From the NCBI RefSeq assembly GCF_003697345.1, contig NZ_RFLY01000014.1, positions 1 through 64,000 on the forward strand: DNA of 64,000 bases, in the 5' to 3' direction. Made by a program: the position numbers and the translations under genes. This DNA is from Solilutibacter pythonis. GTDB taxonomy: Bacteria; Pseudomonadota; Gammaproteobacteria; Xanthomonadales; Xanthomonadaceae. Positions 5,190-20,116 of the stretch are shown one piece after another. Each line of letters starts with the position of its first letter. The first letter of the stretch is position 1. A model generated the notes under the pieces. That model saw only the letters and a program-made list of their open reading frames with translations. It ran no database searches and was not told where the DNA came from.

Positions 5190-6335
5190 TCAGCGCCCGC
5201 TCTTGATCGCGGTCCAGGCGCGCACGCGCTGGCGTTGCATGCTTTCGGGCAGCGATTTCGGGTCGACCAGTTTGGCGCGCACCGCTTCCGGCGGATATAC
5301 GCCGGGATCGTTGGCGATGCCGGGATCGACCAGCGCGGTGGCGTCCTTGTTCGGGTTGGCGTAGGCCACTTCGTTGCTGACCGCCGCGATCACTTTCGGG
5401 TCGAGCAGGTAGTCGATGAAGGCCATCGCGTTGCTCGGGTGCCGGGCGTCCTTCGGCACCGCGATGACGTCGATCCAGCGGATCGCGCCTTCCTTCGGAA
5501 TCACGTAGCGGATGTCCGGCACCGACCGGCCGGCGGCTTTGGCGGCCTCCACCGCGACGTCGCGGGCCTGACCCACGTCGCCGGAATAGCCCATCGCCAC
5601 GCAGACGTCGCCATTGGCCAGGGCGTCCTTGTACTCGGCGTTGTTGAAATTGCGGATGTGGGGACGGATCGCGCCGTACACCCGCTTGACCCGCTCGATT
5701 TCGTCGGCGCTGCCGGCATTGGGGTCGCGGCCTTGCCAGATCAACGCGGCGCCGAAGGCTTCCTGGTCGTCGTCGAGCACGCTGATGCCGCATTGGGCGA
5801 GCTTGGCGGCATTGGCCGGGTCGAACAGCAGCGACCAGGAATCGATGGGCGCGTCCTCGCCCAGGATTTCCTTCACTTTGCCGACGTTGATGCCCAGGCC
5901 GGTCGTGCCCCACATGTAGGGCGCGACGTGGGCGTTGCCCGGATCGATGTCCTCCAGGCCCTTCAGGATCGCCGGGTCGAGGTGTCGCCAGTTCGGCAGT
6001 TTGGTCTTGTCCAGCGCGGCGTACATCCCGCCCTTGACCTGGCGCTGGGCGAACGGTCGCGCCGAGGGGAAGACCACGTCGTAGCCGGAATTGCCGGCGG
6101 AGAGCTTGGTTTCCAGCGTCTCGTTTTCGGAATAGACATCGTAGTTGACCTTGATGCCGGTCTGTTTCTCGAAATTGGCGATGGTGTCCGGGGCGACGTA
6201 ATCCGACCAGTTGTAGACGTTCAGCACCTTCTTCTCCGGGCCCGGAGGGGCGGCGGCGGTGTCGCCGGCGGGCTTGCCGCCACAGGCGGCAACGAGCAGG
6301 ACAACGCAGGCGAGCGGGGCAAGGCGCAGGGTCAC
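5190..6335 (-). CDS. potF: Polyamine-binding lipoprotein PotF
   Basis: A periplasmic solute-binding protein of the PotD/PotF family, 381 residues. The start is read as GTG 6335, preceded by GGAG at 6 nt; no in-frame ATG lies nearby. A short lipoprotein signal ends in LLVAAC with Cys18, so the protein should be membrane-anchored rather than free as in E. coli. The mature part opens with the family hallmark NVYNWSDYV and runs through two alpha/beta lobes. It captures putrescine or a related polyamine for PotGHI. It heads the operon and is divergent from the porin gene at 6468 across 132 bases. Confidence 0.88.
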   Translation of the reverse strand: MTLRLAPLACVVLLVAACGGKPAGDTAAAPPGPEKKVLNVYNWSDYVAPDTIANFEKQTGIKVNYDVYSENETLETKLSAGNSGYDVVFPSARPFAQRQVKGGMYAALDKTKLPNWRHLDPAILKGLEDIDPGNAHVAPYMWGTTGLGINVGKVKEILGEDAPIDSWSLLFDPANAAKLAQCGISVLDDDQEAFGAALIWQGRDPNAGSADEIERVKRVYGAIRPHIRNFNNAEYKDALANGDVCVAMGYSGDVGQARDVAVEAAKAAGRSVPDIRYVIPKEGAIRWIDVIAVPKDARHPSNAMAFIDYLLDPKVIAAVSNEVAYANPNKDATALVDPGIANDPGVYPPEAVRAKLVDPKSLPESMQRQRVRAWTAIKSGR

Positions 6336-6467
6336 GGGTGGCTCCGGGGTGAGATGTTCGATGCGAATTCTACGTGCTGAGCGCAGCCTTGCCGCGCAAT
6401 TCGGCGCGACGAAGGCGATGTCTGGCGCTATCGTATGCGCCTCTCGATTTCCGCCGTGGAGGCGATC

Positions 6468-7223
6468 ATGCGTGTTTCTTCTCTGGGCCTGGCCTTGAGC
6501 CTGTCGCTGCTGGCCGCGCCGGCTTTGGCGCAGGAGGTCGGGCCGGAGGTTGGGCGGGAGGCCGCCTGGACGCTTGGCGGCGGTGTCACCGGCGTCAGCG
6601 ATTACGTCTGGCGCGGGATTTCCCAGACCCGCGGCAAGCCGGCTTTGCAATTCGATCTCAACCTGAGCCATCGCAGCGGCTTCCATGCCGGGGTCTGGGC
6701 CTCGAACGTCGATTTCACCGCGACCGGCGACGAGAACGACGGCATCCGCTACGAGCTTGATCCCTACATCGGCTGGTCGGGCGAGGTGTTCGGCAACGGC
6801 AGCGAGCTGGAGCTGTCGCTGAGCCGCGTCACCTATCCACGCGCCAAACCGGGCTTCAACGTGAATTACACCGAGATAGAAGGCAAGCTGACCTTCCCGC
6901 AACACGTCTATGTCGGCCTCGCCTATTCGCCGGACATCTTCAAGCTGGGCGCGCGCGGCATTTATTACAACGCCGGTGTCGATCTGCCGTTGGGCGAATC
7001 CGGCTGGGGCCTGAAGGCGCAGGCCGGCCACTACGATCTGAAGAAGGCCGCTGGCGACAGTTACGACGATCTCCTGCTTGGCGTGAACCGGCAGTTCGGC
7101 CCGGTCAAGGCCGAACTGGCCTGGACGGATACGACGAGCTATGGCGAGGCGTTATCAGAAAACCTCGACGAAGCCAGTCAGGCCGGCGCGCGATGGGTGT
7201 TGAGCCTGGGCTGGGAGTTCTGA
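6468..7223 (+). CDS. TorF-family putative porin
   Basis: A 251-residue outer-membrane beta-barrel. ATG 6468 was chosen over the upstream frame start (6435) because GGAGG sits 6 nt before it and a clean signal peptide follows (cleavage after ALA, about residue 21). The mature N-terminus carries the family signature GVTGVSDYVWRGISQT, and alternating amphipathic strands lead to a C-terminal Phe (LGWEF), the usual signal for barrel assembly. The length is typical of the family (about 230-260). The substrate is unknown. It is divergent from potF and convergent with the MFS gene. Confidence 0.85.
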   Translation: MRVSSLGLALSLSLLAAPALAQEVGPEVGREAAWTLGGGVTGVSDYVWRGISQTRGKPALQFDLNLSHRSGFHAGVWASNVDFTATGDENDGIRYELDPYIGWSGEVFGNGSELELSLSRVTYPRAKPGFNVNYTEIEGKLTFPQHVYVGLAYSPDIFKLGARGIYYNAGVDLPLGESGWGLKAQAGHYDLKKAAGDSYDDLLLGVNRQFGPVKAELAWTDTTSYGEALSENLDEASQAGARWVLSLGWEF

Positions 7224-7342
7224 TCCGCCTTGCGCCGCTGCCGGTTATTGGTTACCCGAGGCTGAGGCCCATGTCCGGCCTGGGGTGACGATCGGTCTCC
7301 GGGCGGTGGTTTTATCCTGCCCGGCCTGACATTCATCCTGGG

Positions 7343-7380
7343 TGGCCCGGGCATCCGGTAACGGCCGGACGCCCGGGCCA
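7343..7380. terminator. Inverted repeat between convergent genes
   Basis: A perfect 10-bp GC stem (7343-7352 with 7371-7380), continued by a further 4-bp CCGG/CCGG pairing, lies between the ends of the porin gene and the MFS gene. There is no long T-run, so it is a probable bidirectional stop or an RNA-stabilising hairpin rather than a textbook intrinsic terminator. Confidence 0.5.
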
Positions 7381-7402
7381 TGTTTCCGGCGCGGCGGTGC
7401 GG

Positions 7403-8629
7403 TTATCGTCGATCCGTATGGGCGGGCAGGGATGGCGGTGCTCTTCCCAGCGACACCGCGACAAGCACGAGGGCGATCAGGGCGAACGGCGCCCATTCGC
7501 GCCACTGGTACACGAGCGTGCCGATGACCGGCGCGACCACCATCGATAGTCCCTGCGCCACCGATATCGCCCCGGCGCAGGCGCCCTGTTCGTGCGCCTC
7601 GACCGCGTTGGCGGCCAGCGCCGAGGTGGCGGGAAACGCCATGCCCAGGCCGAAACCGGCGATGAAATAGCCCAGGCAGATCGATAGCGGATGGGCGAAG
7701 AGCAGCACGGAGCCGAAACCGGCCGCACCGAGCAGCGTGCCCCAGCGCAGCCATCGCGCGGGCGTGACATCGGGCCGGCGCGAGACCAGCGTCTGCGCCA
7801 CGATCAGGGCCAGTCCGGCGCAGCCCAGCGCCGCGCCGACCCAGGCGGCGGAGTCCCGCGCCTCCACGCGCAGCCGGTCGATCAGAAAGAACCCCAGGCA
7901 GATGTTGGCGATGATCACGCTGCCGTACATGGCGAAGGTGGCGAGCCAAGCTCGACGGATGCGGCGGTCGCCAGGGTTCATCCGGGCCATTTGTGTGGCG
8001 GCGGCGGGCTGACGGGATTCTTTCAGGCGCGAGAGCAGGGGGAGCGCGAATAACGGGAGAAGCGCGAAAACCGCCAGCGAAAGCGCGATGTCGTGACGGC
8101 CCACCCAGCCGGCCAGCGGAGGCGAAAGCACCATGCCGATGGCCCCGGCCGCGCCCAGACGGGCCATTGCCGGGGCGCGCTCGGTGTGGGCGGTCCGGTC
8201 CGCCACCCAGGCCATCGCCGCCACCGGGATACCGGCGTAGAAGCCGCCCATCACGCCGCGCGTCAGCAGCATTACCGCCAAGCTCAATGTCGCGGCGGGC
8301 GTGGCGTGCGGCGTCTGTCGCAGCGCCCACCAGGCATAGGCGGCCAGCGCCAGATAGGCCAGGGTGAAGCCGATCATCGAGATGCGCAGTGTCGTTACCC
8401 TGCCGCGCCTGTCGGCCACCTGGCCCCAGGCGCCGGCCAGTCCTATCCATATCAATCCCACCACGCCGAAGAGCATGCCGATGTGCCATGCCTTTAGGTT
8501 CAGGAGATGCGCCAGTGGGCTGGCCAATGCCACGAAGGCATAGATGGCGGCCATGCAGATCAGGTTGACCAGCAGCAGCGGCCGCATGTCGTTCATGGGA
8601 TTTCCCAGTGCGGATGCTTCCGGATTCAT
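7403..8629 (-). CDS. MFS transporter, last gene of the heme locus
   Basis: A 12-helix major facilitator of about 408 residues with the loop 2-3 signature GQVADRRGR and a long central loop. ATG 8629 is taken as the start because it overlaps the stop of the decayed ABC gene (ATGA, 8626-8629), a relic of translational coupling. ATG 8596 would also keep the whole first helix. Both termini appear cytoplasmic. Position after tonB and an ABC remnant, in a Fur-associated locus, suggests transport of a siderophore, heme breakdown product or other iron ligand, in the manner of MFS genes beside ABC pairs in siderophore loci. That role is inferred; a drug-efflux role cannot be excluded. Confidence 0.75.
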   Translation of the reverse strand: MNPEASALGNPMNDMRPLLLVNLICMAAIYAFVALASPLAHLLNLKAWHIGMLFGVVGLIWIGLAGAWGQVADRRGRVTTLRISMIGFTLAYLALAAYAWWALRQTPHATPAATLSLAVMLLTRGVMGGFYAGIPVAAMAWVADRTAHTERAPAMARLGAAGAIGMVLSPPLAGWVGRHDIALSLAVFALLPLFALPLLSRLKESRQPAAATQMARMNPGDRRIRRAWLATFAMYGSVIIANICLGFFLIDRLRVEARDSAAWVGAALGCAGLALIVAQTLVSRRPDVTPARWLRWGTLLGAAGFGSVLLFAHPLSICLGYFIAGFGLGMAFPATSALAANAVEAHEQGACAGAISVAQGLSMVVAPVIGTLVYQWREWAPFALIALVLVAVSLGRAPPSLPAHTDRR

Positions 8630-8883
8630 GCCGCGGCCCGCCATTGCTTGACACTTTGCCGTACCCGCCACGGTGCGGCATGGCGGCCGTCTCTCGCCGG
8701 TAATTCGGCAGGGGGGCCGGCTTCGGGTAACTGGTCGTCGTCGATGACCAGGATCTGCCGCGCTCCGGTCGTGGTCGAAAGCCGGTGTGCGATCACGATG
8801 ACGGCGTGTTCTCTCCCCGGTGCTGAGCTTGCGTGTTGCACGGCGCGTTTTTCGTCGGTCTCGAACGCTTGGCTCGCCTCGCG
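8626..8883 (-). pseudogene. Decayed ABC transporter, C-terminal nucleotide-binding piece
   Basis: An 85-codon tail that still aligns by eye with the end of an exporter-type ABC protein. It keeps the H-loop (IVIAHRLST), the following ILVIDD strand, an EAG turn and the typical closing helix around ARDG. Upstream, the place of Walker B plus D-loop (normally DEATSALD) has become REASQAFE, and nothing recognisable as Walker A, signature or membrane domain remains before tonB ends at 9138. Its stop overlaps the MFS start, so it was once the preceding gene of the same operon. The 8884-9137 stretch holds no gene and is probably further debris. Confidence 0.7.
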
Positions 8884-9137
8884 GTGGCCTTCGCGCATGT
8901 ATGTCGTGGACGGGGGTGGAGCTTGCCGCGACGGATGCCACGCGTGGTGCGGCGGTTCGTCGAAGGACCGGGAAGCCTCACGGCGGTGATGGGACGGCGG
9001 GAGTGCGGAGGGGGACGTTTGCTTGGGCATGCCAGTTTCCGTATCGGGATGGAATGGCTGGGTCATGCCGGCGGATGCCCTGGGGCGCTTGCCGCAACCT
9101 GGCTGCGAGGGTCGAGTATGGGGGTGTCTTGTCGCCA

Positions 9138-9884
9138 TCACCATTTCCGCCGAATGGAGAAATCCACCGGAATCATCACTTCCACAGGCATCGGGGTGAT
9201 GTCGGGCGGCGGCGGCGGTACCGGATTGGCGCGTTGCACGGTGGCGAGTGCGGCTTCGTCGAGCAGGTCGTGGCCGCTGCCGCGCGTGATGCGCCAACCA
9301 AGCAGATTGCCCTGCCGGTCTACCGAGATGCGCACGTAGACGGTGCCTTGCAACCCGGCGCGCTCGGCTTCGCGCGGATAGCGGCGGTGGCGTTCCAGGT
9401 GCGCTAGCAGCGCGCCCTGCCAGTTGGACACACGGGTTTTTCCAATGCCCGAGAGCGCCTGCCGGCCCGCCGCCTGCTCGGCGCTCGGCAAGGCGGCACT
9501 GGGGGGCGCGCTGGCGAGGGAGGCTTCGCTTTCGTGGGCATTGTCGGCTTCGGGTGTTTCCGCGGGCGCGGGGTCGGGTACCGGTGCGGGCAGTGGCTCC
9601 ACGTCGGGGTGCGGCGGCTTCGGCTGCTCGGGTTTGGGCTTGGGGCGCGGCTTGGGGCGTGCCGCGTCCTGTGCCGGTTGTGGCGGCCCGGGCGGCAAGT
9701 CCGTGGGCGGCGCGGCGGTTTTCGGTTCCGGCGTCATGTCCACCAGCAGCGCCGGCATCGGCGTGGTGGGGGTATCGGGCAGGCGCGCCCAATATAGCGA
9801 GGCGCCGATGGCGGCGGTGTGTAGTGCCAGCGCGGCGGCGAACCCGCCCGCCCATCGCACCCAGCCCCGATGGCATCCGTTCAT
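9138..9884 (-). CDS. tonB: TonB energy-transduction protein
   Basis: 248 residues: a short cytoplasmic N-terminus and one membrane anchor (residues about 12-32), a Pro/Lys/Glu-rich periplasmic spacer, and a C-terminal TonB domain (about 165-248) with YPREAERAGLQGTVYVR. It links the ExbB-ExbD proton motor to outer-membrane receptors, here most likely the HphR-like receptor of the same locus. Its start overlaps the exbD stop (ATGA, 9881-9884). A dedicated TonB within a heme cluster is common when the receptor needs its own transducer. Confidence 0.92.
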   Translation of the reverse strand: MNGCHRGWVRWAGGFAAALALHTAAIGASLYWARLPDTPTTPMPALLVDMTPEPKTAAPPTDLPPGPPQPAQDAARPKPRPKPKPEQPKPPHPDVEPLPAPVPDPAPAETPEADNAHESEASLASAPPSAALPSAEQAAGRQALSGIGKTRVSNWQGALLAHLERHRRYPREAERAGLQGTVYVRISVDRQGNLLGWRITRGSGHDLLDEAALATVQRANPVPPPPPDITPMPVEVMIPVDFSIRRKW

Positions 9885-10306
9885 GGCGCCGACCCCTCCA
9901 GCCCGACCAGCGCGACTTTCAGATAACCGATGCGGCGCAGGCTGTTCATCACCTCGACCAGCTCGCCGTAGGGCACTTGCTTGTCGGCGCGCAGGTGGAT
10001 GCGCTCGTCATGGTTGCCGTCGGTCAGCGCATCCAGCGCCGCGCCCAGTTTCTCGGGTTCGACGTGTCTGTCGTTCACGTGCAGGGTGTCGTCGGCCCGC
10101 ACGGTCAGGAATACCGGGGGCTTGTCCGCCGGGCGGGGCGGGGCGTTGCTTTCGGGCAATTCCACCGGCACGTTCACCGTCGCCAGCGGCGCGGCCACCA
10201 TGAAGATGATCAGCAGCACCAGCATCACGTCGATGAAGGGGGTGACGTTGATCTCGTGGTTTTCCTCGGGCAGGTCGTCGCCCGCGTCGCGCATTCCGAT
10301 CGCCAT
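9881..10306 (-). CDS. exbD: ExbD biopolymer transport protein
   Basis: 141 residues. One N-terminal membrane helix carries the family motif NVTPFIDVMLVLLIIF, including the essential intramembrane Asp (FIDV), and a periplasmic domain follows. With ExbB it forms the proton-driven stator for TonB. It lies 10 nt after exbB and overlaps tonB, so exbB-exbD-tonB are one translational unit. Confidence 0.95.
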   Translation of the reverse strand: MAIGMRDAGDDLPEENHEINVTPFIDVMLVLLIIFMVAAPLATVNVPVELPESNAPPRPADKPPVFLTVRADDTLHVNDRHVEPEKLGAALDALTDGNHDERIHLRADKQVPYGELVEVMNSLRRIGYLKVALVGLEGSAP

Positions 10307-10316
10307 GACGTCCTCC

Positions 10317-11027
10317 TCAATCCGCGTTGCCGGTCGCGCCGCGATCCAGCTCGCGCGAGACGGTCTGCTCGATCAGCGCCGAGACATCGCCCAGTTCCCC
10401 GCGTAGGCTGCCCAGCGAGCGGGTGAAATGGTTGTAGATGACCACCGCCGGAATCGCCGCCACCAGTCCCAGCGCCGTGGCCAGCAGGGCTTCGGCGATC
10501 CCCGGCGCGACCACCGCCAGGTTGGTGGTATTGGCCTGGGCGATGCCGATGAAGCTGTTCATGATCCCCCACACCGTGCCGAACAGGCCGACGAACGGCG
10601 CGACCGCGCCGATGCTGGCCAGGATGCCGATCCCCTGGCGCGCCTCGCGCAGCCAGCCAAGCTCGATGCGCGAAAACCGCGAGGCCACCCGCTCCTTTAC
10701 CCCGGCCGGGGCATCCAGCGTGCTGGAGAGCGCCAGCTCCGCCCGGGCCGCTTCCAGCAGTTGGCGGGCGGTGTCGTCGCCATCGGCGGGGAACTCTCCG
10801 GGGTCGGGTAATTGCCGGCTTCCGGCCAACAGGTTCCGCGCCGCGCGCAGGCGGCGGCGGCGGCGGGCGAGTTCCCGCTGCTTGACGATCAGCACCGTCC
10901 AGGTCACGAGCGAGGCCAGCACCAGGCCGATCATCACCGCCTTCACCACCCAGTCGGCGGAAAGATACATGCCCCAGGGGGTGAGGTTGGCCGCGTGTTC
11001 GGGCGAAAAAGTCGGAGTGTTCTGCAT
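10317..11027 (-). CDS. exbB: ExbB/MotA-TolQ family proton channel
   Basis: 236 residues with three membrane helices (about 22-42, 130-150 and 170-195) and the MotA/TolQ/ExbB signature region around GLFGTVWGIMNSF and EALLATALGLVAAIPAVV. ATG 11027 was chosen because the longer frame upstream reads through the ybaN region in the wrong phase. It builds the pentameric channel that houses ExbD and drives TonB. It sits 56 nt after ybaN. Confidence 0.93.
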   Translation of the reverse strand: MQNTPTFSPEHAANLTPWGMYLSADWVVKAVMIGLVLASLVTWTVLIVKQRELARRRRRLRAARNLLAGSRQLPDPGEFPADGDDTARQLLEAARAELALSSTLDAPAGVKERVASRFSRIELGWLREARQGIGILASIGAVAPFVGLFGTVWGIMNSFIGIAQANTTNLAVVAPGIAEALLATALGLVAAIPAVVIYNHFTRSLGSLRGELGDVSALIEQTVSRELDRGATGNAD

Positions 11028-11083
11028 GGGGTTCGGCTCGTATGGAAAAGGATGGATGACGATGAGGCGGCGTCCCTTGCCGC

Positions 11084-11464
11084 TCATGCGTCGGGGGGGC
11101 GGGCGCGTTGCGGCAGCGGCCGTGTCGCGACGAACACGGCCCCGGCCAGCAGCAGCGCCAGCGCGGCGAACGCCGGCAACGCCGGCGGGCGGGTCAGCCC
11201 GATGAAGAGGGCGAACCCGAGCGCCATCCCGGCCAGCGCGTAGCGCTTGCCCCGGCGGGAAATCGCGCCTTCCTCGTGCCAGTCGCGCAGGGTCTGCCCA
11301 TAGCGGGGATGCGCCAGCAGGCGTGCCTGCAAGCGCGGCGAGGAGCGGGTGAAACAGGCCAGCGCCAGGAGCAGGAAGATGGTGGTCGGCATCACCGGCA
11401 GCAGCGCGCCAATGAAGCCGAGCGCCACCATCAACCAGCCCAGGGCCAGCCACAACGTCCGCAT
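11084..11464 (-). CDS. DUF454/YbaN-type inner-membrane protein
   Basis: A 126-residue membrane protein with hydrophobic segments at about 3-40 and 78-115, separated by the conserved cytoplasmic stretch around FTRSSPRLQARLLAHPRYG. This pattern is characteristic of the YbaN/DUF454 family, whose biochemical role is not established. It begins 13 nt after the hemO stop and precedes exbB, so it is co-transcribed with heme utilisation genes. As I recall, DUF454 genes are often neighbours of heme oxygenases and heme receptors, hinting at a role in handling heme or its breakdown products at the inner membrane. That role is inference. Confidence 0.8.
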   Translation of the reverse strand: MRTLWLALGWLMVALGFIGALLPVMPTTIFLLLALACFTRSSPRLQARLLAHPRYGQTLRDWHEEGAISRRGKRYALAGMALGFALFIGLTRPPALPAFAALALLLAGAVFVATRPLPQRARPPDA

Positions 11465-11477
11465 GCCGGCCGGGCGC

Positions 11478-12059
11478 TCAGGCGAAGCAATGGGCGGCAT
11501 GGGCATGTACCCGTCGGAACGCCGTGCGCGCGGCCTCGGTGGCCTCGGCGCGCGCCGCCTCGTCCAGCGGCTCGCTGTCGAGCACCTGGGTGAAGGCGCG
11601 CCAATGCGGCGCGCGGCCATCGGGATGCGCGGCCAGGTGGCGCGCGCCGAAGTTCGCGCCCAGGCCCAGCCGAGCGGCCTGCTTGAACAGGATCGCCGCG
11701 CCCAGGTTGGAGCCTTCGGCCACGTAGAACCAGCCCAGCGCGGCCGGCAGCGGCATATCGGCATCGATCACCGCGGCGGTGTCCTCGGGCACGGGGATGT
11801 CGAGATCCCGCATGTCCTGGCGCAGGGCCTCCAGCCGCTGGCGCTCGGTCAGGTCGGCCACGCGCGCGCGCAGGCCGGCGTGGGCGAACAGCGGCGCGAT
11901 GTCGCGGTGGAACAGGTACTGCATGCGCAGGAAGCGGCCGTAGTGCGCGCGGCTGGCGAACGGCTCGCTTCGCATGATCGTCTGGTCCAGCGCGTCATGG
12001 GTTTCGCGGGTGGCTTCCTTGAGCTGCTTGCTGAAAGGAGAGGGCATCGGGTCGGTCAT
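11478..12059 (-). CDS. hemO: Biliverdin-producing heme oxygenase
   Basis: A 193-residue cytosolic enzyme that opens heme to biliverdin, CO and Fe2+. It shows the proximal heme ligand His21 in the ETHDALD context and the glycine-containing distal helix GSNLG at residues 116-120. The length fits bacterial HemO/PigA proteins (about 190-200). It lies 33 nt after the Slam gene. No strong Shine-Dalgarno precedes ATG 12059, so coupling to upstream translation is likely. It is the intracellular end of the pathway encoded by this locus, releasing iron from imported heme. Confidence 0.9.
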   Translation of the reverse strand: MTDPMPSPFSKQLKEATRETHDALDQTIMRSEPFASRAHYGRFLRMQYLFHRDIAPLFAHAGLRARVADLTERQRLEALRQDMRDLDIPVPEDTAAVIDADMPLPAALGWFYVAEGSNLGAAILFKQAARLGLGANFGARHLAAHPDGRAPHWRAFTQVLDSEPLDEAARAEATEAARTAFRRVHAHAAHCFA

Positions 12060-12092
12060 GATTTCGTGTCGGTTGGGGTGGAGAAATTCGGA

Positions 12093-13601
12093 TCAGAAGC
12101 GGCGTTCGAGCCGCAGGCTCGCGCTGTTTCGTTCGTGGCCGTAGAGCCAGTCCACGCTGCTGCGGGTGCGCCCATGCCGCAGCAACAGGCCGGGCGTCAG
12201 CCCGAAAACGTCGAATGCGGGCGCGCGCAGCAGCAGCGTCCAATGCTGCTCCAGGTCTTCGCGGCGGGCGCCGAGCAAGGGGTTGAAGGCGGCATGGCGG
12301 CGTTGCCGCAAGGTGGCCATCAGCATGGCGTCGAAGCGCTCGCCGAAGGCTTTGTGCGCGCCCAGCCGAAGCCCGTACGAGTGCCAGCTTTCCACCTCCA
12401 CGCGGGCGCGGCGGCGGGTGATGTCCGGGCCGCCGAAGAGCGTCCAGCGCCCGGGTAGGCTCTGCCAGAGGGTGGCGAAAACCGCGCTCTGCGTGCCGTC
12501 CAGACGGTCGTAGCCCTGCCGCAAGTGCCGTAGATAACGGTGGCTGCCTTCCACTTTCAAGAAGCGCTGGGGGGAAAGCGAATGCGACCACTCCGCCTGC
12601 ACCCCGTACCCGCGATACAGCGTGCGGTTGCCCAGCAGGGCATGTTCGTAGAGCGGGGCGAGGGTGAATTGATGGCGGGCGTTCTCGAAACTCCAGCCGG
12701 CCTGGAGGCTGGCATTGCCATCGTTGAAGGCGCTATGTCCGCGCCATGCCTGCCCGTAGGCCAGTCCGCGCACGTACAGGCCGTGGTGGCCCGAAAGTGG
12801 GAAGCGCCGGGCGATGGCGGCCTCGTAATCCAGCCCCGGCGCGGCGATGGCTTCGGGCGCGATGCGCTCGACCAGGCATTTGCCACTGCCCGTATCCAGC
12901 CACAGGCAGGTGCGGTCGCGCGAGGATTGGTTGAGGTTGCTGCTCCAGAGCGCGCCGACGGCCACCGAGCCTTGCCAGCTCCGGCGCTTTTCGAGCGATT
13001 TGATGAAAGTATCGACGTTGTGCGTCACGCCGCGCGTTCTGATGTCTTCCGTGTCCAGCCCGGCGCGGATGTCGCGGAACATCCGTTCGGCTTCCCCGTC
13101 CTGGTGGTTTTCGAACAGCACCCGCGCCAGCTCCAGTCGGCCCGGCAGGAAATCCGGCTGGATCGCCAGCAGCGCGCGGTATTCCGCCTCGGCCTGGGCG
13201 AGGTGCCCCGCCTGTCGCGCCAGCGCGCCCTGGGCGTGGTGCACCAGCATGTTGTCGTGGCCGGGCAGTTGTAGATAACGGTCGAGAAAGCGCCGCGCGT
13301 CCGCCCATTGGCGGCGGCCGATGGCCAGGTACAGCGCGCGCCCGGTCTGGTCCACGTCGGGGGCGACGGTATAGGTCTGGCCGTCGATGGTCAGGGTGTC
13401 GGCGGCGCTGGCATCCTGACGTGCTTCCTCTTCAAGCAGGGCGCGCTCCTTGGCGCGCGCATCGCGCTCGATGGCGTGGTCCAGCCGCAGCCGGGTATCG
13501 TCGCGCGCCTGCGCAAGCAGGGCCGGCGGAACGACCAGCAGGCAGGCCAGCAAGGCGCGGGCTTGCCGGGCGGCGGGTCTCGGTAATGGGGTTTCGTGCA
13601 T
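12093..13601 (-). CDS. Slam, outer-membrane translocator for the hemophore
   Basis: About 502 residues. A signal peptide lies at residues about 12-34. A periplasmic helical region with TPR-like repeats (about 75-185) contains alternating DARRFLDRYLQLPGHDN and QAEAEYRALLAIQPDF motifs. A C-terminal 14-strand-type barrel follows (DUF560 region, about 215-502), ending in the terminal Phe of LRLERRF. This is the architecture of surface lipoprotein assembly modulators (Slam), which export TbpB-like barrels across the outer membrane. It sits directly downstream of a hemophilin-like gene, its predicted client, as in the hphA-Slam arrangement of Acinetobacter. The start is uncertain: ATG 13601 gives the signal peptide, while ATG 13682 in the same frame lengthens it by 27 residues; neither has a good ribosome site. 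Confidence 0.88.
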   Translation of the reverse strand: MHETPLPRPAARQARALLACLLVVPPALLAQARDDTRLRLDHAIERDARAKERALLEEEARQDASAADTLTIDGQTYTVAPDVDQTGRALYLAIGRRQWADARRFLDRYLQLPGHDNMLVHHAQGALARQAGHLAQAEAEYRALLAIQPDFLPGRLELARVLFENHQDGEAERMFRDIRAGLDTEDIRTRGVTHNVDTFIKSLEKRRSWQGSVAVGALWSSNLNQSSRDRTCLWLDTGSGKCLVERIAPEAIAAPGLDYEAAIARRFPLSGHHGLYVRGLAYGQAWRGHSAFNDGNASLQAGWSFENARHQFTLAPLYEHALLGNRTLYRGYGVQAEWSHSLSPQRFLKVEGSHRYLRHLRQGYDRLDGTQSAVFATLWQSLPGRWTLFGGPDITRRRARVEVESWHSYGLRLGAHKAFGERFDAMLMATLRQRRHAAFNPLLGARREDLEQHWTLLLRAPAFDVFGLTPGLLLRHGRTRSSVDWLYGHERNSASLRLERRF

Positions 13602-13727
13602 ATGAATCGGGTTGTCCGGCGTGTTCCGTGCCGGGGCATGGCTGGCCTCCTGCTGGCTTTGCCCCACCGCTTTTTGAATCATCGCGTGTGCCCGGTTCGT
13701 CCTGAATCGGGCGGGTGTCGGGACGTC

Positions 13728-13760
13728 AATCCCCGAGTAGTGCCTCCGGCACCGGGATTA
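13728..13760 (-). promoter_or_regulatory. Hairpin immediately after the hemophore gene
   Basis: A nested inverted repeat starts at the TAA of the hemophore gene. The inner stem is GTGCC/GGCAC and the outer stem AATCCC/GGGATT. No T-run follows, so it should not terminate fully. A likely role is to protect the hemophore mRNA 3' end or reduce read-through into the translocator gene, giving more hemophore than Slam. Confidence 0.45.
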
Positions 13761-14549
13761 CGGCTGCTTGTTGCCGCCAAAGGCCGTGTCGTACTGGCTG
13801 CCGCCGGCAAAAGTGGCCATGCCGGCCAGCGCGGCCGCCTGGTTGCCGTAGAACTGGCCCTGCGAGCTGCCGCTGGCGCCATTGGGCGTGGACGTGTTGG
13901 TGGACATGGCCGTGGCCGTACCGTTGAAGCCGGAACCGCTGATGTTGGCGTTGATCGTTACCTTCAGGTCGCTGTTGGCAATGCTGCCGCTCAGCGTGTT
14001 GGCACCGAAATCGGCGGTGAAGGTGCCGGACATCAGGTTGGTGCCAAGCGTGTTGTGCTTGTTGATGCCCTTGACCGCGTAAGTGGCGCTGCCGCCGGTG
14101 GGCATGGTGGTGCCGGCCTTGTCGCCCACGTAGTAGACAGTGCGGTCGGTGAAGCCGCCGATGCTGCCGTTGGTGGACCACTCACCGAACCAGACGTCGC
14201 CCGCGCCGACCTTGGCGAAGCTGAACACGCCCATGCCCAGATGCGAACCTGGCAGATTGACGACTGGCAATGCCAGGCTGTAGACGGAGACGCCATCGGA
14301 CGTGCCGTAGGGGATGCTCAGCTTGGCGACGCCTTGCAGGTCGACAATCTTCAGGTTGTATAGGGTGCGGACACCAATACCTGCAAACCCGGGCTTATGT
14401 GGCCCGCCATTCCCTACCGATTTGCCGGTGACGACATTTTTGGTATTGCTGGAACCGCCAACAAACTGATCCTCAGCTTGCGCCGAGCCGATCATACCGA
14501 TCGCCAGCAGCGCCAACGCCAGGGTGGAAAACTTGTATTGCTTTTTCAT
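13758..14549 (-). CDS. Hemophilin/HphA-like secreted hemophore
   Basis: 263 residues. A Sec signal peptide ends at AQA (about residue 25) with no lipobox Cys, so the protein is soluble rather than lipidated. The rest is Gly/Ser/Thr/Asn-rich beta sequence. The C-terminal third reads like the eight-stranded TbpB-type barrel recognised by Slam: the run GQFYGNQAAALAGMATF followed by DTAFGGNKQ parallels the closing FFGxxAxxVGG and FGGKK motifs of that fold. The N-terminal half would hold heme. It lies between a HasR/HphR-type receptor and a Slam gene, beside heme oxygenase, so the assignment rests on fold-level motifs plus context. AGGA lies 8 nt before ATG 14549. Heme binding itself is predicted, not shown. 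Confidence 0.8.
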   Translation of the reverse strand: MKKQYKFSTLALALLAIGMIGSAQAEDQFVGGSSNTKNVVTGKSVGNGGPHKPGFAGIGVRTLYNLKIVDLQGVAKLSIPYGTSDGVSVYSLALPVVNLPGSHLGMGVFSFAKVGAGDVWFGEWSTNGSIGGFTDRTVYYVGDKAGTTMPTGGSATYAVKGINKHNTLGTNLMSGTFTADFGANTLSGSIANSDLKVTINANISGSGFNGTATAMSTNTSTPNGASGSSQGQFYGNQAAALAGMATFAGGSQYDTAFGGNKQP

Positions 14550-14629
14550 GAGATATTCCTATTCAAGTTGAAGTTAAAGATGCCGGGCATCCCGCCCGCC
14601 TGCCACAGCTCCATGCATGGCCGCACGGT

Positions 14630-17404
14630 TCAGAACCGCGCGGTCAAACCCAGTTTCATGGTGCGCCCGGGCGAGGGCATCAGGCCCAGCGTCAGCGCGT
14701 CCATGTAGTAACGGTCGGTGAGGTTGTCGATGGTGAAATCCAGCGCCACCCGCTTGTTGAACCGGTAATTGGCGTAGAGGTCGGCCAAGGTATAGGGCGT
14801 CCACACCACGGTGGTGGAGCTGCTGCCCGGGGCGATCACCAGTGAATCCGCGCGTTGGCCGACATAGGTCACGCGCCCGCCCAGGCTCAAGCGCTGGTCG
14901 AACAACCTGACCCCGGCCTCCAGCGTGCCGGAGGTCTTGGGCGGGATATGGTTGACCGCATAGCCCAGCCCGGCGGCGGCATACCGCCTGTCCGCGATGC
15001 AGGGCTCCAACTGCGCACCAGGCTCAAAACTGAAATTGCAGAATTCGATCTTGCTGTAGCGGTTTCCAGAAATGGCGGCATGCCAGCGCGGTGTTTCGTA
15101 TTCCAGGCTGGCCTCGTAGCCACGGAAGTCGGCATAATCGATATTGATCAGGCCACTGCCCTTGAGGTCGTTGGCGTAGGTGATGTAATCCTTGACGTGG
15201 TTGCGGAACGCCGCCAGCTTGAAGCGCAGCCGGTCGTCCTCGCCCAACACATCGCTTTTCAGCAGGTTGAAGCCGATCTCGCGGTTACGCGCGTGTTCCG
15301 GGCGTACGGGGTTGGCCGGGTTGGGGTCGGCCGAGCCGCCTCTGGATACTTCGAACAAAGCCGGCATGCGTAAGGCCTCGGCATGGCGGAGGTAGATTTG
15401 CATGCCTTCCAGTGGCATGAAGGTGACTGCGATGATCGGGGCGGTGCCGCTGGCGCTTCCTTCGTAGTTTCCCTTTTCACAAAGCTGTTTCGTGAGTTTG
15501 CAATTGCTGTTGCGGTCGTAAGAGCTGAATCGGCTGTGGCGCAGGGTGCCGTTGAATTTTAGCCAGTCCAGTGGTGTCCATTCGGCTGACACATAGGCGC
15601 TGCTTTCCTTGCGTTTGGCATCCCGGTCGCCTGAGAACAGGGCGAATCCCGCGTTGGCGTTGCGGTCGCCCTCGTCGGTGGATTGTCCGGGTAATGGCTG
15701 CAAGTTCTCCTTTTGCAGGCTTGCGCCGTAATCGAGCATAAGCATTCCCATGCCGGTATCGATCTCGGACTGGTTGCTGATATTCAGCCCGCGTCGCACG
15801 GACTGGAAGTGCATAGTCGTTGTGTGCTTGAAAAGGCCAAAGGCCGGAAATGAATAAGCCAGCCGCATGATGTTGTTCACCCGTGTCTGCCACAGGTTGA
15901 GCTTGAGGGAAATCAGCGGATTCCGGGGGTCGAGCTTGTAGCGCACGGTATGGGTATTGGCATCCACCGTGCTGATGCCGGATTGGATCGGGCCTTCGCC
16001 ACGAATCACCATGGAGGGCATCAGTTCACCGTATTCGCTCTTGTAATTCATCAGGCCGATTTCCAGCGCCTGGTCGGGCGAGGGGTTCCATTTCCCTTTC
16101 AGCAGCCACGAGGTGTTGTCGGTTGACGTGTTGAGGATTTCCTCACCGCCGCGGAATTGGTTGAGGTTGGTTTGCGCCACGGGCTTGACATAGGTCATCC
16201 AGAAGTCGGGCAGGCTTGGGTCAAGAATGACGTTTTCTTTTTGGTAGCCCATGAACCTGGGAATGGCTGGCCCGTTTTTACCGGAAAAATAATTGCCGCT
16301 TTTGCGCCGTGCGTAGGCCGTGACCAGCTCGAAATTCGTCCATTGCTTGGCAAAGGCCAAGCTGCCGTAGCCGCCGGTTGGCTGACCAAAGCCAGGGCGT
16401 GCCAATCGTTCTGAATGGGGTTGATTGGCGGATGGCGCGGCGCTTATTTTGGCGCAAGGCGCGTAGCCCATTTGTAGTAGTGCTGGTGAGCAATCAACGA
16501 GATAAATGGTGTTGGGCAGGCCACCGCTGGTAAACGCCGGCGGCGGGCTGCGGCTGTTGTCGCTGTAGCCCAGCCGTACCCGCAGGCCCCAGTCCTTGTC
16601 GTCGGTAATGATGTCGCGCGCCTCCAGGGTGCGCATGCTCACCACGCCGCCGGTCGCGCCCTGGCCTTCCGCGCCGCCACTGGGGCCTTTGCTGACGGTG
16701 ATGCCGCCAATCAGATCCGGGTCCACGTAGGTGCGCCCGGCCACGCCGGAATAGCCGCGATACACGGTGTTCTGCTGTTGGCTGCCATCGATCACCACCG
16801 GCACCCGGCCCACGCCCTGCATGCCGCGGATGTTCACGTCCAGCGCGTTGCCGCCCATGCGGTTGTCGCCGTTCAAGACGCCGGGGATGCCCTTGAGCAC
16901 GTCGCCGGCCTGGGTGCCGCGGAAGCGCTCGATGCGTTGCTGCGAGATGTGCGCACCGGATTGCGGCGCTTCATAGAACGTATCGGCCGGTGTGCCCTCA
17001 CTCGTGCCGCGCCCTTCCACCGAGAGCACGTCGGTGACCATCACGTCATCCGTATCGGCCGGGGCGGGGAGGCGTTGGAGGGTCAGCGCGCCGGGCCGTG
17101 GCTGGCGCCAGGTCAGGCCGCTGCCGGCCAGTAGCTGGCGCATGGCCGTCTCCAGGGTGTAGTCGCCCCGCAGCGGCGGGCCTTGCAGGCCGTGGGTCAT
17201 GGCCGGGTCGAAGCTGATGGAGACGCCGGTGGCGGCGGCCAGCCGGTTCAGGCTGGTGGCGAGCGGCGCGGCGGGCAGGTCGAGGGCATGCGCGCGCGCC
17301 TGCGCCTGGGCGGGCACGGGGCTGGCGAGTAGCACGGGCGAGGCCAAGGCCAGCGCGCAGGCGAGCGCCAGCGGCAAGGGGCGGGGAGAGGGGCGTGATG
17401 GCAC
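14630..17404 (-). CDS. TonB-dependent heme/hemophore receptor with signalling domain (HphR/HasR-like)
   Basis: A 924-residue outer-membrane receptor. The signal peptide ends around residue 33. A periplasmic STN domain (about 36-110; ALDLPAAPLATSLNRLAAATG) precedes a TonB-box-like segment (DDVMVTDVLSVEG, about 119-131), the plug with the GMQGVGRVPVVIDGSQQ strand (about 215-235), and a 22-strand barrel ending in Phe (LGLTARF). The plug style matches HasR- and hemoglobin-type receptors. The STN domain marks it as a transducer that should signal occupancy to FecR and FecI just upstream. The barrel portion has locally lower GC than the plug. A Fur-box-like site precedes it at 17420-17434. The preferred ligand (free heme or holo-hemophore) is inferred. 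Confidence 0.87.
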   Translation of the reverse strand: MPSRPSPRPLPLALACALALASPVLLASPVPAQAQARAHALDLPAAPLATSLNRLAAATGVSISFDPAMTHGLQGPPLRGDYTLETAMRQLLAGSGLTWRQPRPGALTLQRLPAPADTDDVMVTDVLSVEGRGTSEGTPADTFYEAPQSGAHISQQRIERFRGTQAGDVLKGIPGVLNGDNRMGGNALDVNIRGMQGVGRVPVVIDGSQQQNTVYRGYSGVAGRTYVDPDLIGGITVSKGPSGGAEGQGATGGVVSMRTLEARDIITDDKDWGLRVRLGYSDNSRSPPPAFTSGGLPNTIYLVDCSPALLQMGYAPCAKISAAPSANQPHSERLARPGFGQPTGGYGSLAFAKQWTNFELVTAYARRKSGNYFSGKNGPAIPRFMGYQKENVILDPSLPDFWMTYVKPVAQTNLNQFRGGEEILNTSTDNTSWLLKGKWNPSPDQALEIGLMNYKSEYGELMPSMVIRGEGPIQSGISTVDANTHTVRYKLDPRNPLISLKLNLWQTRVNNIMRLAYSFPAFGLFKHTTTMHFQSVRRGLNISNQSEIDTGMGMLMLDYGASLQKENLQPLPGQSTDEGDRNANAGFALFSGDRDAKRKESSAYVSAEWTPLDWLKFNGTLRHSRFSSYDRNSNCKLTKQLCEKGNYEGSASGTAPIIAVTFMPLEGMQIYLRHAEALRMPALFEVSRGGSADPNPANPVRPEHARNREIGFNLLKSDVLGEDDRLRFKLAAFRNHVKDYITYANDLKGSGLINIDYADFRGYEASLEYETPRWHAAISGNRYSKIEFCNFSFEPGAQLEPCIADRRYAAAGLGYAVNHIPPKTSGTLEAGVRLFDQRLSLGGRVTYVGQRADSLVIAPGSSSTTVVWTPYTLADLYANYRFNKRVALDFTIDNLTDRYYMDALTLGLMPSPGRTMKLGLTARF

Positions 17405-17419
17405 GGTGCTGATTCCTAT

Positions 17420-17434
17420 TGAAAGTCATTATCG
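17420..17434 (-). promoter_or_regulatory. Fur-box-like site before the receptor gene
   Basis: The 15-mer TGAAAGTCATTATCG lies 16 bases before the receptor ATG. Against the 7-1-7 Fur consensus TGATAATnATTATCA it matches 11 of 14 informative positions. It lies in the 175-base gap between fecR and the receptor, where a FecI-dependent promoter is also expected, so iron and heme signals could be integrated here. Confidence 0.6.
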
Positions 17435-17579
17435 TTTTCATTGCCCGTCGAGTCAGGCAAAGGGGCCAAGCCGTTCCATCCCGGTGGGTTTTCTGGGCGC
17501 TGGGGACGCTTGCCGCGTGGTACCGGTGCGCTGTCGGTTTCCGGGGTGTCCCAGAGGGTTTTCCGGGAGCTGGAAGCGC

Positions 17580-18557
17580 TTACTGGGCCAAGGGGAGCGC
17601 CGGGCGCAGCCGTACCCACCAGCGGGTGCGGTGCTCGATGCGGATGGGGAAGGCGTCGGCAAGCAGGGCCAGCGCGGCATCGATATCGGCTAGTTGGAAC
17701 ATGCCCGAAACCAGGATGCCGGCGATGGCGGGGTCGCAATCCAGCCAGCCACGGCGGTAGCGGGCCAGCTCCGCCGTGAGCTGCTCAAGCGGCATGGCGT
17801 GCGCGGCGAGGCGGCCATGCAGCCAGTCGAAGGCGGTTTCCGCAAGGGCGAGGCTGGCGCCCGCGCCATCGGCGCCGAAACGCATTTCCTGGCCGGCCTG
17901 GACGATACGTGCGCGTTGCGGTGCGCGCGCGGGGATGGCTTTCACTTCACCGCGTTCCACGGCGAGGCGGGTGGCGGTATCTTCCAGGCGCACGCCGAAG
18001 CGGGTGCCGAGGGGGTGCAGCATGCCGTGTGGCGTGTGTAGCCGCCACGGGCGCGCGGGGCGCATGGGGTCGGCGGCGGTCTCGATCATGACCTCGCCAC
18101 GGATCAGCCGCAACAGCCGCTGCTGGTCGTCGTAGGCCACTTCGATGTGGGTACCGGTGTTGAGCCGGAGGTGTACGCCATCGGGCAGGCGCACGTCGCG
18201 TTGCTCGCCGATGGCGGTGTGAATGACTTCGCCGGCGGGCAGGGCGCCGGTTTCGCGTAGCGTCAGCCAGCCCAGGGGCGCGGCGACGGTCAGTGCGGCC
18301 GCCGTTCCCAGCCATTGCCGGCGCTGTCGGTCGATCTTGGCGGGGGGGAGGGCCGTGCTGCCAAGCGAGGGCGGCAATGTGTCGAACAGCGAGCGGAGCG
18401 CGCCGGCCCGCCGCCAAGCCGCCGCGTTGGCGGGGGCGGCGGCCAGCCAGTGGCGATGCGCTTCCAGCTCGTCCGGGCCAGTGCTGTCATCCTCCAGGCG
18501 CACCAGCCAGTCGGCGGCTTCGCGCAGGGCTTGTGGGAGGTCGGTGGCGCTGTCCAT
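17580..18557 (-). CDS. FecR-family anti-sigma/transducer
   Basis: A 325-residue inner-membrane regulator. An N-terminal cytoplasmic DUF4880-type domain (about 8-50; REAADWLVRLEDDSTG and HRHWLAAAPANAAAWRRA) binds the sigma factor. A single membrane helix follows (about 85-105), then the periplasmic FecR domain (about 110-210) with HTAIGEQRDVRLPDGVHLRL and a C-terminal STN-contacting region. It relays the receptor signal and controls the adjacent FecI-like sigma factor. It follows fecI after 2 bases. Confidence 0.9.
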   Translation of the reverse strand: MDSATDLPQALREAADWLVRLEDDSTGPDELEAHRHWLAAAPANAAAWRRAGALRSLFDTLPPSLGSTALPPAKIDRQRRQWLGTAAALTVAAPLGWLTLRETGALPAGEVIHTAIGEQRDVRLPDGVHLRLNTGTHIEVAYDDQQRLLRLIRGEVMIETAADPMRPARPWRLHTPHGMLHPLGTRFGVRLEDTATRLAVERGEVKAIPARAPQRARIVQAGQEMRFGADGAGASLALAETAFDWLHGRLAAHAMPLEQLTAELARYRRGWLDCDPAIAGILVSGMFQLADIDAALALLADAFPIRIEHRTRWWVRLRPALPLAQ

Positions 18558-18559
18558 GC

Positions 18560-19054
18560 CTATTCCATCGCTTGCAGGCAGTCCAGCCAGGCGGCGGCCA
18601 TGTCGCGCTTGACGGTGCGCACGGATATGCCGAGGCGCTGGGCGATTTCCGCGTAGCCCAGCCCATCGAGCCGGGAGAGCAGGAAAACCTCGCGGGTGCG
18701 GGCGGGCAGGTTACCCAGCATCCGGTCCAGCCGGAGCAGGGCGTCCAGCGCGGCCTGCCGCTCCTCCGCTGGGGGGCACCAGGGCAGGGACAGCGTGGCG
18801 AGGTGCTCCAGATACGCGCGCTCGATGTCGCGGCGTCGCCAGAAATTGATGAGCAACCCTTCCGCCACGCAGGTGAGATAGGCGCGTGGCGTGCGCAGGT
18901 CGGGGGCTTCCTGCTTGTTCATCAGGCGCAGAAAGGTGTCCTGGGCCAGGTCGCGCGCGGACTCTTCCCCGCCCATGCGCTTTCTCAACCATCCCAGCAG
19001 CCAGTGGTGATGTTGAAGGTAGAGCGTGTTCAGTTCCGCGTGCGGGAGGGACAA
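18560..19054 (-). CDS. FecI-type ECF sigma factor
   Basis: An extracytoplasmic-function sigma-70 factor of about 164 residues. Region 2 opens with LYLQHHHWLLGWLRKRM and includes ARDLAQDTFLRL; region 4 has the helix-turn-helix GYAEIAQRLGISVRTVKRD. The open frame reaches back to 19159, but the Fur box and presumed promoter lie within that extension. TTG 19054, about 9 nt after GGAAGA, is therefore preferred and gives the usual family length. It should direct RNA polymerase to the receptor operon when FecR signals hemophore/heme binding. The start choice is uncertain; the family call is not. Confidence 0.85.
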   Translation of the reverse strand: MSLPHAELNTLYLQHHHWLLGWLRKRMGGEESARDLAQDTFLRLMNKQEAPDLRTPRAYLTCVAEGLLINFWRRRDIERAYLEHLATLSLPWCPPAEERQAALDALLRLDRMLGNLPARTREVFLLSRLDGLGYAEIAQRLGISVRTVKRDMAAAWLDCLQAME

Positions 19055-19073
19055 GGCAGGAATGTCTTCCAGT

Positions 19074-19088
19074 TGAGAATCATTATCA
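19074..19088 (-). promoter_or_regulatory. Fur box before fecI
   Basis: TGAGAATCATTATCA matches the 7-1-7 Fur consensus TGATAATnATTATCA at 13 of 14 positions. It ends 19 bases before the proposed TTG start of the sigma gene, so iron-loaded Fur would block the whole signalling cascade. This is the clearest regulatory site in the window. Confidence 0.8.
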
Positions 19089-19385
19089 TACAGGCCGGTG
19101 GCCGTTTTGGCTTCCCGCGCTTCATGGATCGGCCGGGCTGGGAGCAATCGGGCTTGCAAGCGCGTGGGGGCGTCGGCGTCGTTCGCCCGTCATCGCGTCT
19201 GGCGTATGACGCATGGTCAACGACGCGCGCGCTTCATTGGCGTGCCGCGATTTGCCGATGGTTCGAGGATTGCGCGCGGTGTCACTCCAGGCCAGGGGGC
19301 GTCGATGTTTCGCTGGCGGCGGGTTGGCTGGCCGGTACCGCTCGGTTGCCGGCCGGCGCCCTTCGTCGGGTAATGCGCATTTCGC

Positions 19386-19666: not shown

Positions 19667-19970
19667 GAGCATTCGCAAAGGAAGTTCTGGACAAGCGTGC
19701 ATCGCGCGATCCCGAGGCACACGGGCATGCTGGCCGGTGGTATGGGGCGCGCAGGACGCGACGAGCGGGCCTCGCCCGTATCGGCGCGGCGCCTTGGGTG
19801 CCTTCGGTGCGGGCCGTGGCGCGATGCGACGCAACGAATTGCCGCTTCGAAGGAGGCGGCAATGCGCAGTCGAAATCTTGGGCGGCAACAGCGGTACGGG
19901 CTTTCGTTCCCGTCCGGTGCGCACGGCGTTGCCGCAAGCGTATGCCGATGCCGCTTCGAGACGGCTGCGA

Positions 19971-20044
19971 CGACGTTGGCTCAACTGGGAGAGCAACAGC
20001 TTCGGATGCTGTCGGTTGCGGGTTCGAGTCCCGCACGTTGACCA
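19971..20044 (+). tRNA. Degenerate tRNA-like element, anticodon CGG (Pro-like)
   Basis: It folds as a cloverleaf. D-stem GCTC/GAGC (19979-19982, 19991-19994). Perfect anticodon stem ACAGC/GCTGT with loop TTCGGAT, anticodon CGG. Perfect T-arm GCGGG-TTCGAGT-CCCGC (20018-20034). The acceptor is only 6 bp (CGACGT/ACGTTG, one wobble) followed by A and an encoded CCA. A normal tRNA-Pro(CGG) exists at 34672-34748, so this may be a specialised or decaying tRNA. It abuts and overlaps the next element and lies upstream of the slipin-rtcB genes. Confidence 0.5.
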
Positions 20045-20116
20045 CTGGATAGCTCAGTCGGGTAGAGCAGTGGACTGTTAATCCACCTGTCGCGGGTTCG
20101 AGTCCCGCTCCAACGA
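20043..20116 (+). tRNA. tRNA-Asn-like element, anticodon GTT, defective acceptor stem
   Basis: D-stem GCTC/GAGC, perfect anticodon stem GTGGA/TCCAC with loop CTGTTAA (anticodon GTT) and perfect T-arm GCGGG-TTCGAGT-CCCGC. The acceptor stem pairs only partly (two mismatches in seven), no CCA is encoded, and its 5' end overlaps the CCA of the preceding tRNA-like element by two bases. The 3' strand TCCAACG would pair perfectly with CGTTGGA, but that 5' sequence is interrupted. A functional aminoacylated tRNA-Asn is doubtful; a regulatory tRNA mimic or decoy is possible. Confidence 0.55.

Follow-up and report, generated by a model that had tools for sequence, protein, structure and literature searches.

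The DNA analysed here is a stretch of 64,000 nucleotides from Solilutibacter pythonis (contig NZ_RFLY01000014.1, positions 1 to 64,000), to which we refer as a whole as the window. Ten genes on its minus strand, between positions 9138 and 19054, make up a heme locus encoding a sigma factor, FecR, a TonB-dependent receptor, a hemophilin (HphA), a Slam protein, a heme oxygenase, a DUF454 protein, ExbB, ExbD and TonB. As a heme locus it is ordinary and of an already known kind. Its receptor lies outside the clade formed by HphR, the receptor type of other hemophilin loci, and the combination of hemophilin with such a receptor appears from the sequences to be a new variant. We consider it likely that both parts of this description, a hemophilin heme-acquisition locus and a receptor outside HphR, hold together.

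Genes, limits and regulation of the heme locus

All ten genes named in a first-pass annotation of this DNA are present, on one strand and in the order given there:

18560..19054, minus strand: FecI-type extracytoplasmic function (ECF) sigma factor, 164 amino acids, with probable start TTG 19054 (longer open frame to 19159)
17580..18557, minus strand: FecR anti-sigma factor or signal transducer, 325 amino acids (Pfam FecR 1.9e-20, DUF4880 2e-9)
14630..17404, minus strand: TonB-dependent heme receptor with STN domain, 924 amino acids, short loop L6, outside the HphR clade by trees and loop lengths (Pfam barrel 1.6e-37, plug 1.1e-16, STN 3.2e-9)
15470..15508, minus strand: probable receptor loop L6 (residues 633-645 out of 924), site of the large HphR insertion (strand count in a low-confidence AlphaFold2 model, and alignment)
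13758..14549, minus strand: hemophilin (HphA), 263 amino acids (Pfam HphA_N 6.5e-26, HphA_C 1.8e-21; PDB 8gmm 2.3e-62)
12093..13682, minus strand: Slam, type 11 secretion outer-membrane protein (TPR and SlipAM), 529 amino acids (Pfam SlipAM 9.8e-45, TPR_Slam 3.9e-24)
11478..12059, minus strand: heme oxygenase, 193 amino acids (Pfam 3.5e-22)
11084..11464, minus strand: DUF454 (YbaN family) membrane protein (Pfam 1.3e-34)
10317..11087, minus strand: ExbB (TIGR02797 5.4e-87, above cut-off)
9881..10306, minus strand: ExbD (TIGR02803 5.3e-52, above cut-off)
9138..9884, minus strand: TonB (TIGR01352 9e-22, above cut-off)
19069..19093, no strand: Fur-box-like site (13 of 19 positions matching), close before the sigma gene
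17415..17439, no strand: Fur-box-like site (14 of 19 positions matching), close before the receptor gene

Nine of the ten genes exceed a Pfam cut-off, and the sigma gene was judged by NCBIfam, where it reaches 69.9 bits with the superfamily model TIGR02937 (cut-off 42.9) and matches the FecI-type models PRK12528 (1.7e-52) and FecI (1.4e-45) under their own cut-offs. Family E-values in the profile scans range from 3e-9 (STN) to 3e-90 (heme receptor model), and chance resemblance is no concern for the gene families of the locus. The intergenic gaps from the sigma gene to TonB are 2, 175, 80, 75, 33, 13, -4, 10 and -4 bases with the sigma gene starting at TTG 19054. This is probably the translation start, because the longer frame from 19159 crosses the Fur-box-like site at 19069-19093. 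The sigma factor, FecR and the STN-bearing receptor constitute a complete FecIRA-type signalling set at one locus. The Slam gene, the only one in the genome with a SlipAM match, is of the type 11 secretion system kind, combining TPR_Slam and SlipAM barrel domains and adjoining its cargo gene.

The range of 7403-19088 proposed in the first-pass annotation does contain the heme locus, but at its low end it takes in a major facilitator superfamily (MFS) gene about 540 bases beyond TonB. Since this gene has no counterpart among the frames of 41 related loci, we placed the end of the locus at TonB 9138. Between TonB and the MFS gene, a minus-strand remnant (8626 to about 8850) resembles the C-terminal end of an ATP-binding cassette (ABC) transporter (IVIAHRLST); no match was found among the related loci compared, and it was not retained as a locus member. 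Just past the sigma end of the locus lie genes for tRNA-Pro and tRNA-Asn (19970-20116), whose longest match outside themselves is of 17 bases, to 33736, within another tRNA gene. No att-like repeat marking an island boundary was seen at the far end of the locus. As to synteny with congeners, the RtcB neighbour is present in one of three.

To locate Fur-box-like sites, all 19-mers of the window were compared with the Fur consensus. The two best 19-mers of the window overlap at the site before the receptor gene, and two of its three 13-of-19 sites overlap at the site before the sigma gene. Among related loci, 9 of 13 carry a Fur-like site of 12-17 of 19 near the sigma or receptor start, a score of 12 being weak (12 such positions occur in the window); near these starts, nothing above 11 of 19 was found at L024, L028, L045 and L047. 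HemI-HemR-HemAD of S. maltophilia has been described as a heme operon resembling FecIRA, with a putative Fur box (PMC12772443, in excerpt); the excerpt names neither Slam nor hemophilin with it.

The hemophilin and its known relatives

The hemophilin scores well over the Pfam cut-offs of HphA_N (91.3 bits, cut-off 22) and HphA_C (77.1 bits, cut-off 31), and reaches 138 bits (cut-off 80) with NF041636, the NCBIfam model of Slam-dependent proteins that carries the name surface lipoprotein. In a phmmer search of the PDB its top solved match was 8gmm (E 2.3e-62), named S. maltophilia holo-HphA in the Foldseek table; identity is 50% to 8gmm and 55% to the S. maltophilia hemophilin of L024. The first-pass annotation had proposed a comparison of the predicted structure with HphA, and this turned out hemophilin-like: the AlphaFold2 model, built on an alignment of 16 sequences, has a mean predicted local distance difference test score (pLDDT) of 82.1, Foldseek returned 8gmm first (E 1.7e-24), and the top eight PDB matches are all hemophilins. 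The predicted fold combines a clamp with an eight-stranded barrel.

H51 is conserved in all 16 aligned hemophilins. In the H103 column, 13 of the 16 have a histidine, two more (L045 and L047) have it one place earlier, and the extra hemophilin copy of L030 (9069) has none. The two residues align with both axial heme ligands of A. baumannii HphA, H43 and H106 (PMC8560813, in excerpt; the record numbering is one lower than that of the paper), making them candidate axial ligands. Tandem hemophilin genes occur in Stenotrophomonas-group strains (L030 9069-10648, also L031, L032 and L044), and it is the first copy in L030 that is without the second axial histidine. Read by eye, the N-terminus is a type I signal peptide (...IGSAQA/EDQ) without a lipobox cysteine, so the product looks like a soluble hemophilin, a cargo tied to TXISS-1B in an mBio 2021 survey (PMC8406197, in excerpt).

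A hemophilin search of the species-genome collection gave 29 loci (L024-L052), titled Stenotrophomonas in 20 cases, [Pseudomonas] hibiscicola in one and Xanthomonas in one; the remaining titles are a metagenome-assembled genome of a Rickettsia endosymbiont and six other Gammaproteobacteria. HphA_N was found in 19 of 398 order-sample genomes, the window genome included; within the genus, one genome of the 17 has it. The window genome has a single HphA_N match. Hemophilin is thus already known from the bacterial family of the window (Stenotrophomonas, Xanthomonas). The first-pass annotation had placed the system in another lineage and expected its hemophore to stay hypothetical in routine annotation; neither idea holds, because S. 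maltophilia HphA, the Stenotrophomonas and Xanthomonas loci and the curated models are all known.

Nor is the gene set novel, since the genes of the Acinetobacter hemO cluster are arranged almost alike. In A. baumannii, an ECF sigma factor and an anti-sigma factor are followed by hphR, hphA, hsmA, TonB, heme oxygenase and a last protein (PMC10483418, in excerpt), which belongs to the YbaN/DUF454 family (record L086). This cluster (HphA/HsmA/HphR) shares with the window sigma, FecR, receptor, hemophilin, Slam, TonB, heme oxygenase and DUF454 in one run. The window differs by its additional ExbB and ExbD genes, by TonB coming at the end of the run, and by a receptor that falls outside the HphR clade and is missing the L6 insertion. 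The S. maltophilia loci, source of the nearest solved hemophilin, have the order sigma-FecR-receptor-hemophilin-Slam; however, their receptors are HphRs with about 32% identity to the window receptor, and in most of them no heme oxygenase or ExbBD-TonB was seen within the stretch read. The run from receptor to TonB is the same in S. tumulicola, Xanthomonas AmX2 and Stenotrophomonas PS02298. Stenotrophomonas tumulicola L045 and Xanthomonas sp. AmX2 L047 match the window from FecR through receptor, hemophilin, Slam, HemO, DUF454, ExbB and ExbD to TonB, with the sigma gene found also at L045, but their receptor is an HphR with a long L6. Taken together, the sequences support the first-pass view of a Slam-dependent hemophilin locus that would serve heme scavenging, import, degradation and signalling.

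Placement of the receptor outside HphR

The first-pass annotation had treated the receptor as HphR. By position it would qualify, standing directly before hemophilin and Slam and possessing STN, plug and barrel domains, but it falls outside the clade of hemophilin-locus receptors and lacks their large L6 insertion. Its identity to 18 receptors from hemophilin-locus neighbourhoods (17 of them inside the hemophilin run itself) is 29-34%, whereas these 18 share 38-90% among themselves. To type each locus, we took the receptor closest to hemophilin, among matches no more than 3.5 kb away, and scored it with references of two kinds: five HphRs and five sister receptors, the latter found as matches to the window receptor. 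The HphR type was best at each of the 29 loci L024-L052. It was also best throughout the order sample, where the other 18 hemophilin genomes were typed on the fragments L002-L019 and 12 of them on longer stretches as well, and at all nine plasmid-collection loci examined, three of them scored over the whole stretch (11 plasmid records matched; H29 and H30 were outside the typing); these sets overlap and are not independent. It was still best at the five reference-source loci with their own reference left out (760-1165 versus 222-254 bits). Only the window receptor (L020) scored as sister-type. The stretches L001 (window), L023 and L085 each lack either a receptor or a hemophilin and gave no typing score.

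Phylogenetic trees gave the same placement. A tree of 18 HphR-type and nine sister rows gave the HphR split 100/100 and put the window with the sisters. The split received 100/99 when the rows were 23 HphRs, ten sisters and two HasR pieces, and 100/100 when, again with 23 HphRs, HasR was left out and a second receptor of the genome, from contig 15, was included; the window lay outside HphR each time. All but one of the 23 HphR rows adjoin hemophilin, L050_15815m being at a neighbouring locus. Trees from the plug (100/99) and from the late barrel (100/100) each group the window with the sister clade, the latter with a warning of the long-branch-attraction type, as long branches meet there. Approximately unbiased (AU) tests rejected both the placement of the window inside the Xanthomonadales/Novosphingobium HphRs (log-likelihood 257 lower, p 2e-68) and a single clade of HphR and window (26.7 lower, p 0.003).

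The most visible difference concerns L6. Between the framing strands, the segment measures 29 residues in the window receptor, 138-207 in all 23 HphRs and 24-39 in all ten sister receptors (36, 145-214 and 31-46 for a wider segment). A count of the barrel strands in the receptor model, which is weak (pLDDT 58), gives 22. It puts residues 633-645 after strand 11 and before strand 12, on the long-loop side, where L6 is predicted; HasR His603, in L7, aligns two strands after this site, as expected. The window L6 region shares FSS.D.N and GTAP with the KG3 sister receptor, and therefore resembles a sister loop rather than a deletion. When HasR carries a short deletion in L6, L8 or L9, it no longer binds HasA, but heme uptake that does not depend on HasA persists (PMC6981324, in excerpt). 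By analogy, the L6 insertion of HphRs may dock hemophilin.

The heme ligands of HasR are His189 and His603 (PMC6981324, in excerpt). In the window receptor, Y218 and D693 occupy these positions. Tyrosine stands at the His189 position in all 34 other rows, that of the window included, and may therefore be a plug-side heme ligand throughout the receptor group.

The nearest receptors to that of the window belong to second sigma-FecR-receptor loci of the Pseudoalteromonas plasmid pPsKG3_1 and of genome G535 (38% and 41% identity); these also have a short L6, but a PKD-domain protein follows them instead of hemophilin and Slam. At 1e-100, a search with the window receptor found none besides itself in the 398 order-sample genomes; at 1e-70, the class (369) and phylum (398) samples, which share genomes, added one further genome, G535; and at 1e-40, 22 plasmid records were found, with a best identity of 38%. 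Of the nine sister loci read, eight showed no hemophilin or Slam within about 20 kb at E 1e-3, and the ninth, on pPsKG3_1, has both, together with an HphR of its own adjoining them. We found no description of the receptor variant in the open-access literature, outside which lie the hemophilin papers of Shin et al. 2024 and Grossman et al. 2024 (J Bacteriol).

Several observations weigh against this placement or against the exchange discussed below. The structural model behind the L6 assignment is of low confidence. The branch of the window receptor is long (about 1.2), and in the late-barrel tree, under its long-branch warning, Pmir_hph also comes to lie on the window's side. In the STN-only tree the window is placed without resolution and its nearest rows are HphRs, and barrel segment 400-520 is slightly closer to HphRs. 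The AU-test groups were chosen after inspection of the tree, Haemophilus and Neisseria hemophilin loci are outside the sample, and the number and company of the ten sister receptors are biased by their having been found as matches to the window receptor. Finally, sigma and FecR give no support to exchange of a whole signalling set. Their closest counterparts stand at the second locus of Stenotrophomonas sp. PS02298 (95/94 and 93/91). The receptor may be a mosaic, the STN tree lacking resolution.

Possible receptor exchange and the partner of the hemophilin

The window Slam branches near those of Xanthomonadales and Novosphingobium (86/90). We infer that the receptor, at least in its plug and late barrel, replaced an HphR while the cargo half stayed; a short-L6 receptor of the neighbouring clade would have entered a locus with a Slam of the Xanthomonadales/Sphingomonadales type. 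Sigma and FecR were set aside as evidence on exchange, being uninformative because such regulators seem to have changed places several times among hemophilin loci. These apparent swaps stand in contrast to the receptors of the same loci, which form one clade.

The locus might operate as follows. When iron is scarce, Fur would leave the two sites before the sigma and receptor genes and the locus would be expressed. Hemophilin would be exported from the cytoplasm by Sec, pass the outer membrane through the adjoining Slam and bind heme outside the cell between H51 and H103. The window receptor would import the heme, powered by the ExbB-ExbD-TonB proteins encoded alongside it. Loading would be signalled from the STN domain of the receptor through FecR to the sigma factor, and heme oxygenase would open the heme ring. 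We lean, with some reserve, towards the window receptor taking heme from the window hemophilin. Whether the hemophilin works with a receptor that lacks the L6 insertion and comes from a clade mostly serving hemophilin-free loci, as the outcome of a natural receptor exchange, is in our view evenly balanced. For A. baumannii, heme transfer from HphA to HphR by direct contact has been stated as likely, not shown (PMC8560813, in excerpt).

The main competitor as partner is encoded elsewhere in the genome. Contig 15 carries a second sigma-FecR-receptor set (6476-11126, L096), whose 973-amino-acid receptor (8205-11126) could be the real partner, and this counts against pairing within the window. In such a case hemophilin would deliver heme in trans to the contig-15 receptor, and the window receptor would take free heme or host hemoproteins; this concerns the pairing and is compatible with receptor exchange. 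In the contig-15 receptor the wider L6 segment counts 112 residues, a length intermediate between the short class and that of the HphRs, and WYPDANGDFTR in its L6 resembles WLPDADGNYTR of an S. maltophilia HphR loop; the receptor scores 414 bits against S. maltophilia HphR versus 282 against the window receptor, and like hemophilin it is found (at 1e-60) in 1 of the 17 genomes of the genus. However, it too falls outside the HphR clade (100/100); it has a long branch and is not part of the short-loop clade either. The 20 kb read around its gene showed no hemophilin, and it is the window receptor that occupies the usual place of HphR, at a distance of 80 bases from hemophilin and preceded by a Fur-like site. 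We regard delivery in trans as possible, though unlikely.

It is less probable still, indeed doubtful, that this is an ordinary hemophilin locus whose receptor is a fast-evolving HphR that lost the L6 insertion and docks hemophilin normally. Operon position, an STN domain nearest to those of HphRs and the shared plug tyrosine would fit this, but the separate plug and late-barrel trees, the sister-like rather than deleted L6 and the AU tests all argue against it.

The hemophore and exporter of the Has system differ from hemophilin and Slam. Otherwise HasR/HasA is similar in composition, with hemophore, STN-bearing receptor, sigma and anti-sigma factors, and works alike (see also PMC6981324, in excerpt). 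That the receptor is a HasR, in a Has system where an acquired hemophilin has supplanted HasA and its type I exporter, is very improbable: HasR is its best solved match (2.1e-51, stronger than for an S. maltophilia HphR, 7.9e-25) and lies on its side of the tree, but the two heme histidines are not kept, the HasR branch is very long (3.4) and present as two pieces only, and the sister rows are far nearer by path. The HasA profile PF06438 had no match in this genome, but it also had none in any control or in 274 genomes (0 of 274), so this negative carries no weight.

If a receptor exchange did take place and the window receptor does serve the window hemophilin, hemophilin and receptor would be separable modules. 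Heme transfer would then rely on some other contact or need no tight docking. The L6 insertion would be a candidate hemophilin-docking loop of HphRs. The comparison singles out L6, whose counterpart in HasR is required for binding HasA, and the window pair would offer a natural experiment on the role of L6 and on the exchangeability of hemophore and receptor.

Some further arrangements were noted among the related loci. On pPsKG3_1, from a cheese-rind Pseudoalteromonas (L084, 1-14282), HphR-hemophilin-Slam, HemO-TonB-ExbBD and a sister-type receptor locus lie side by side, a setting that could permit exchange of such parts. In A. baumannii record L100 (about 5412-8926), FecR and hemophilin have no annotated receptor gene between them; the highest-scoring HphR match in that stretch reaches 505 bits, lower than the 769 in L086. 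PKD-domain proteins adjoin heme receptors at L075 (6199-8964, minus strand), L076 (11560-13992) and L089 (5767-8654). Those of G535 and Pseudoalteromonas KG3 are 62% identical, and Vibrio campbellii has two weaker copies between HphR and hemophilin; these proteins are candidate surface binders of heme proteins.

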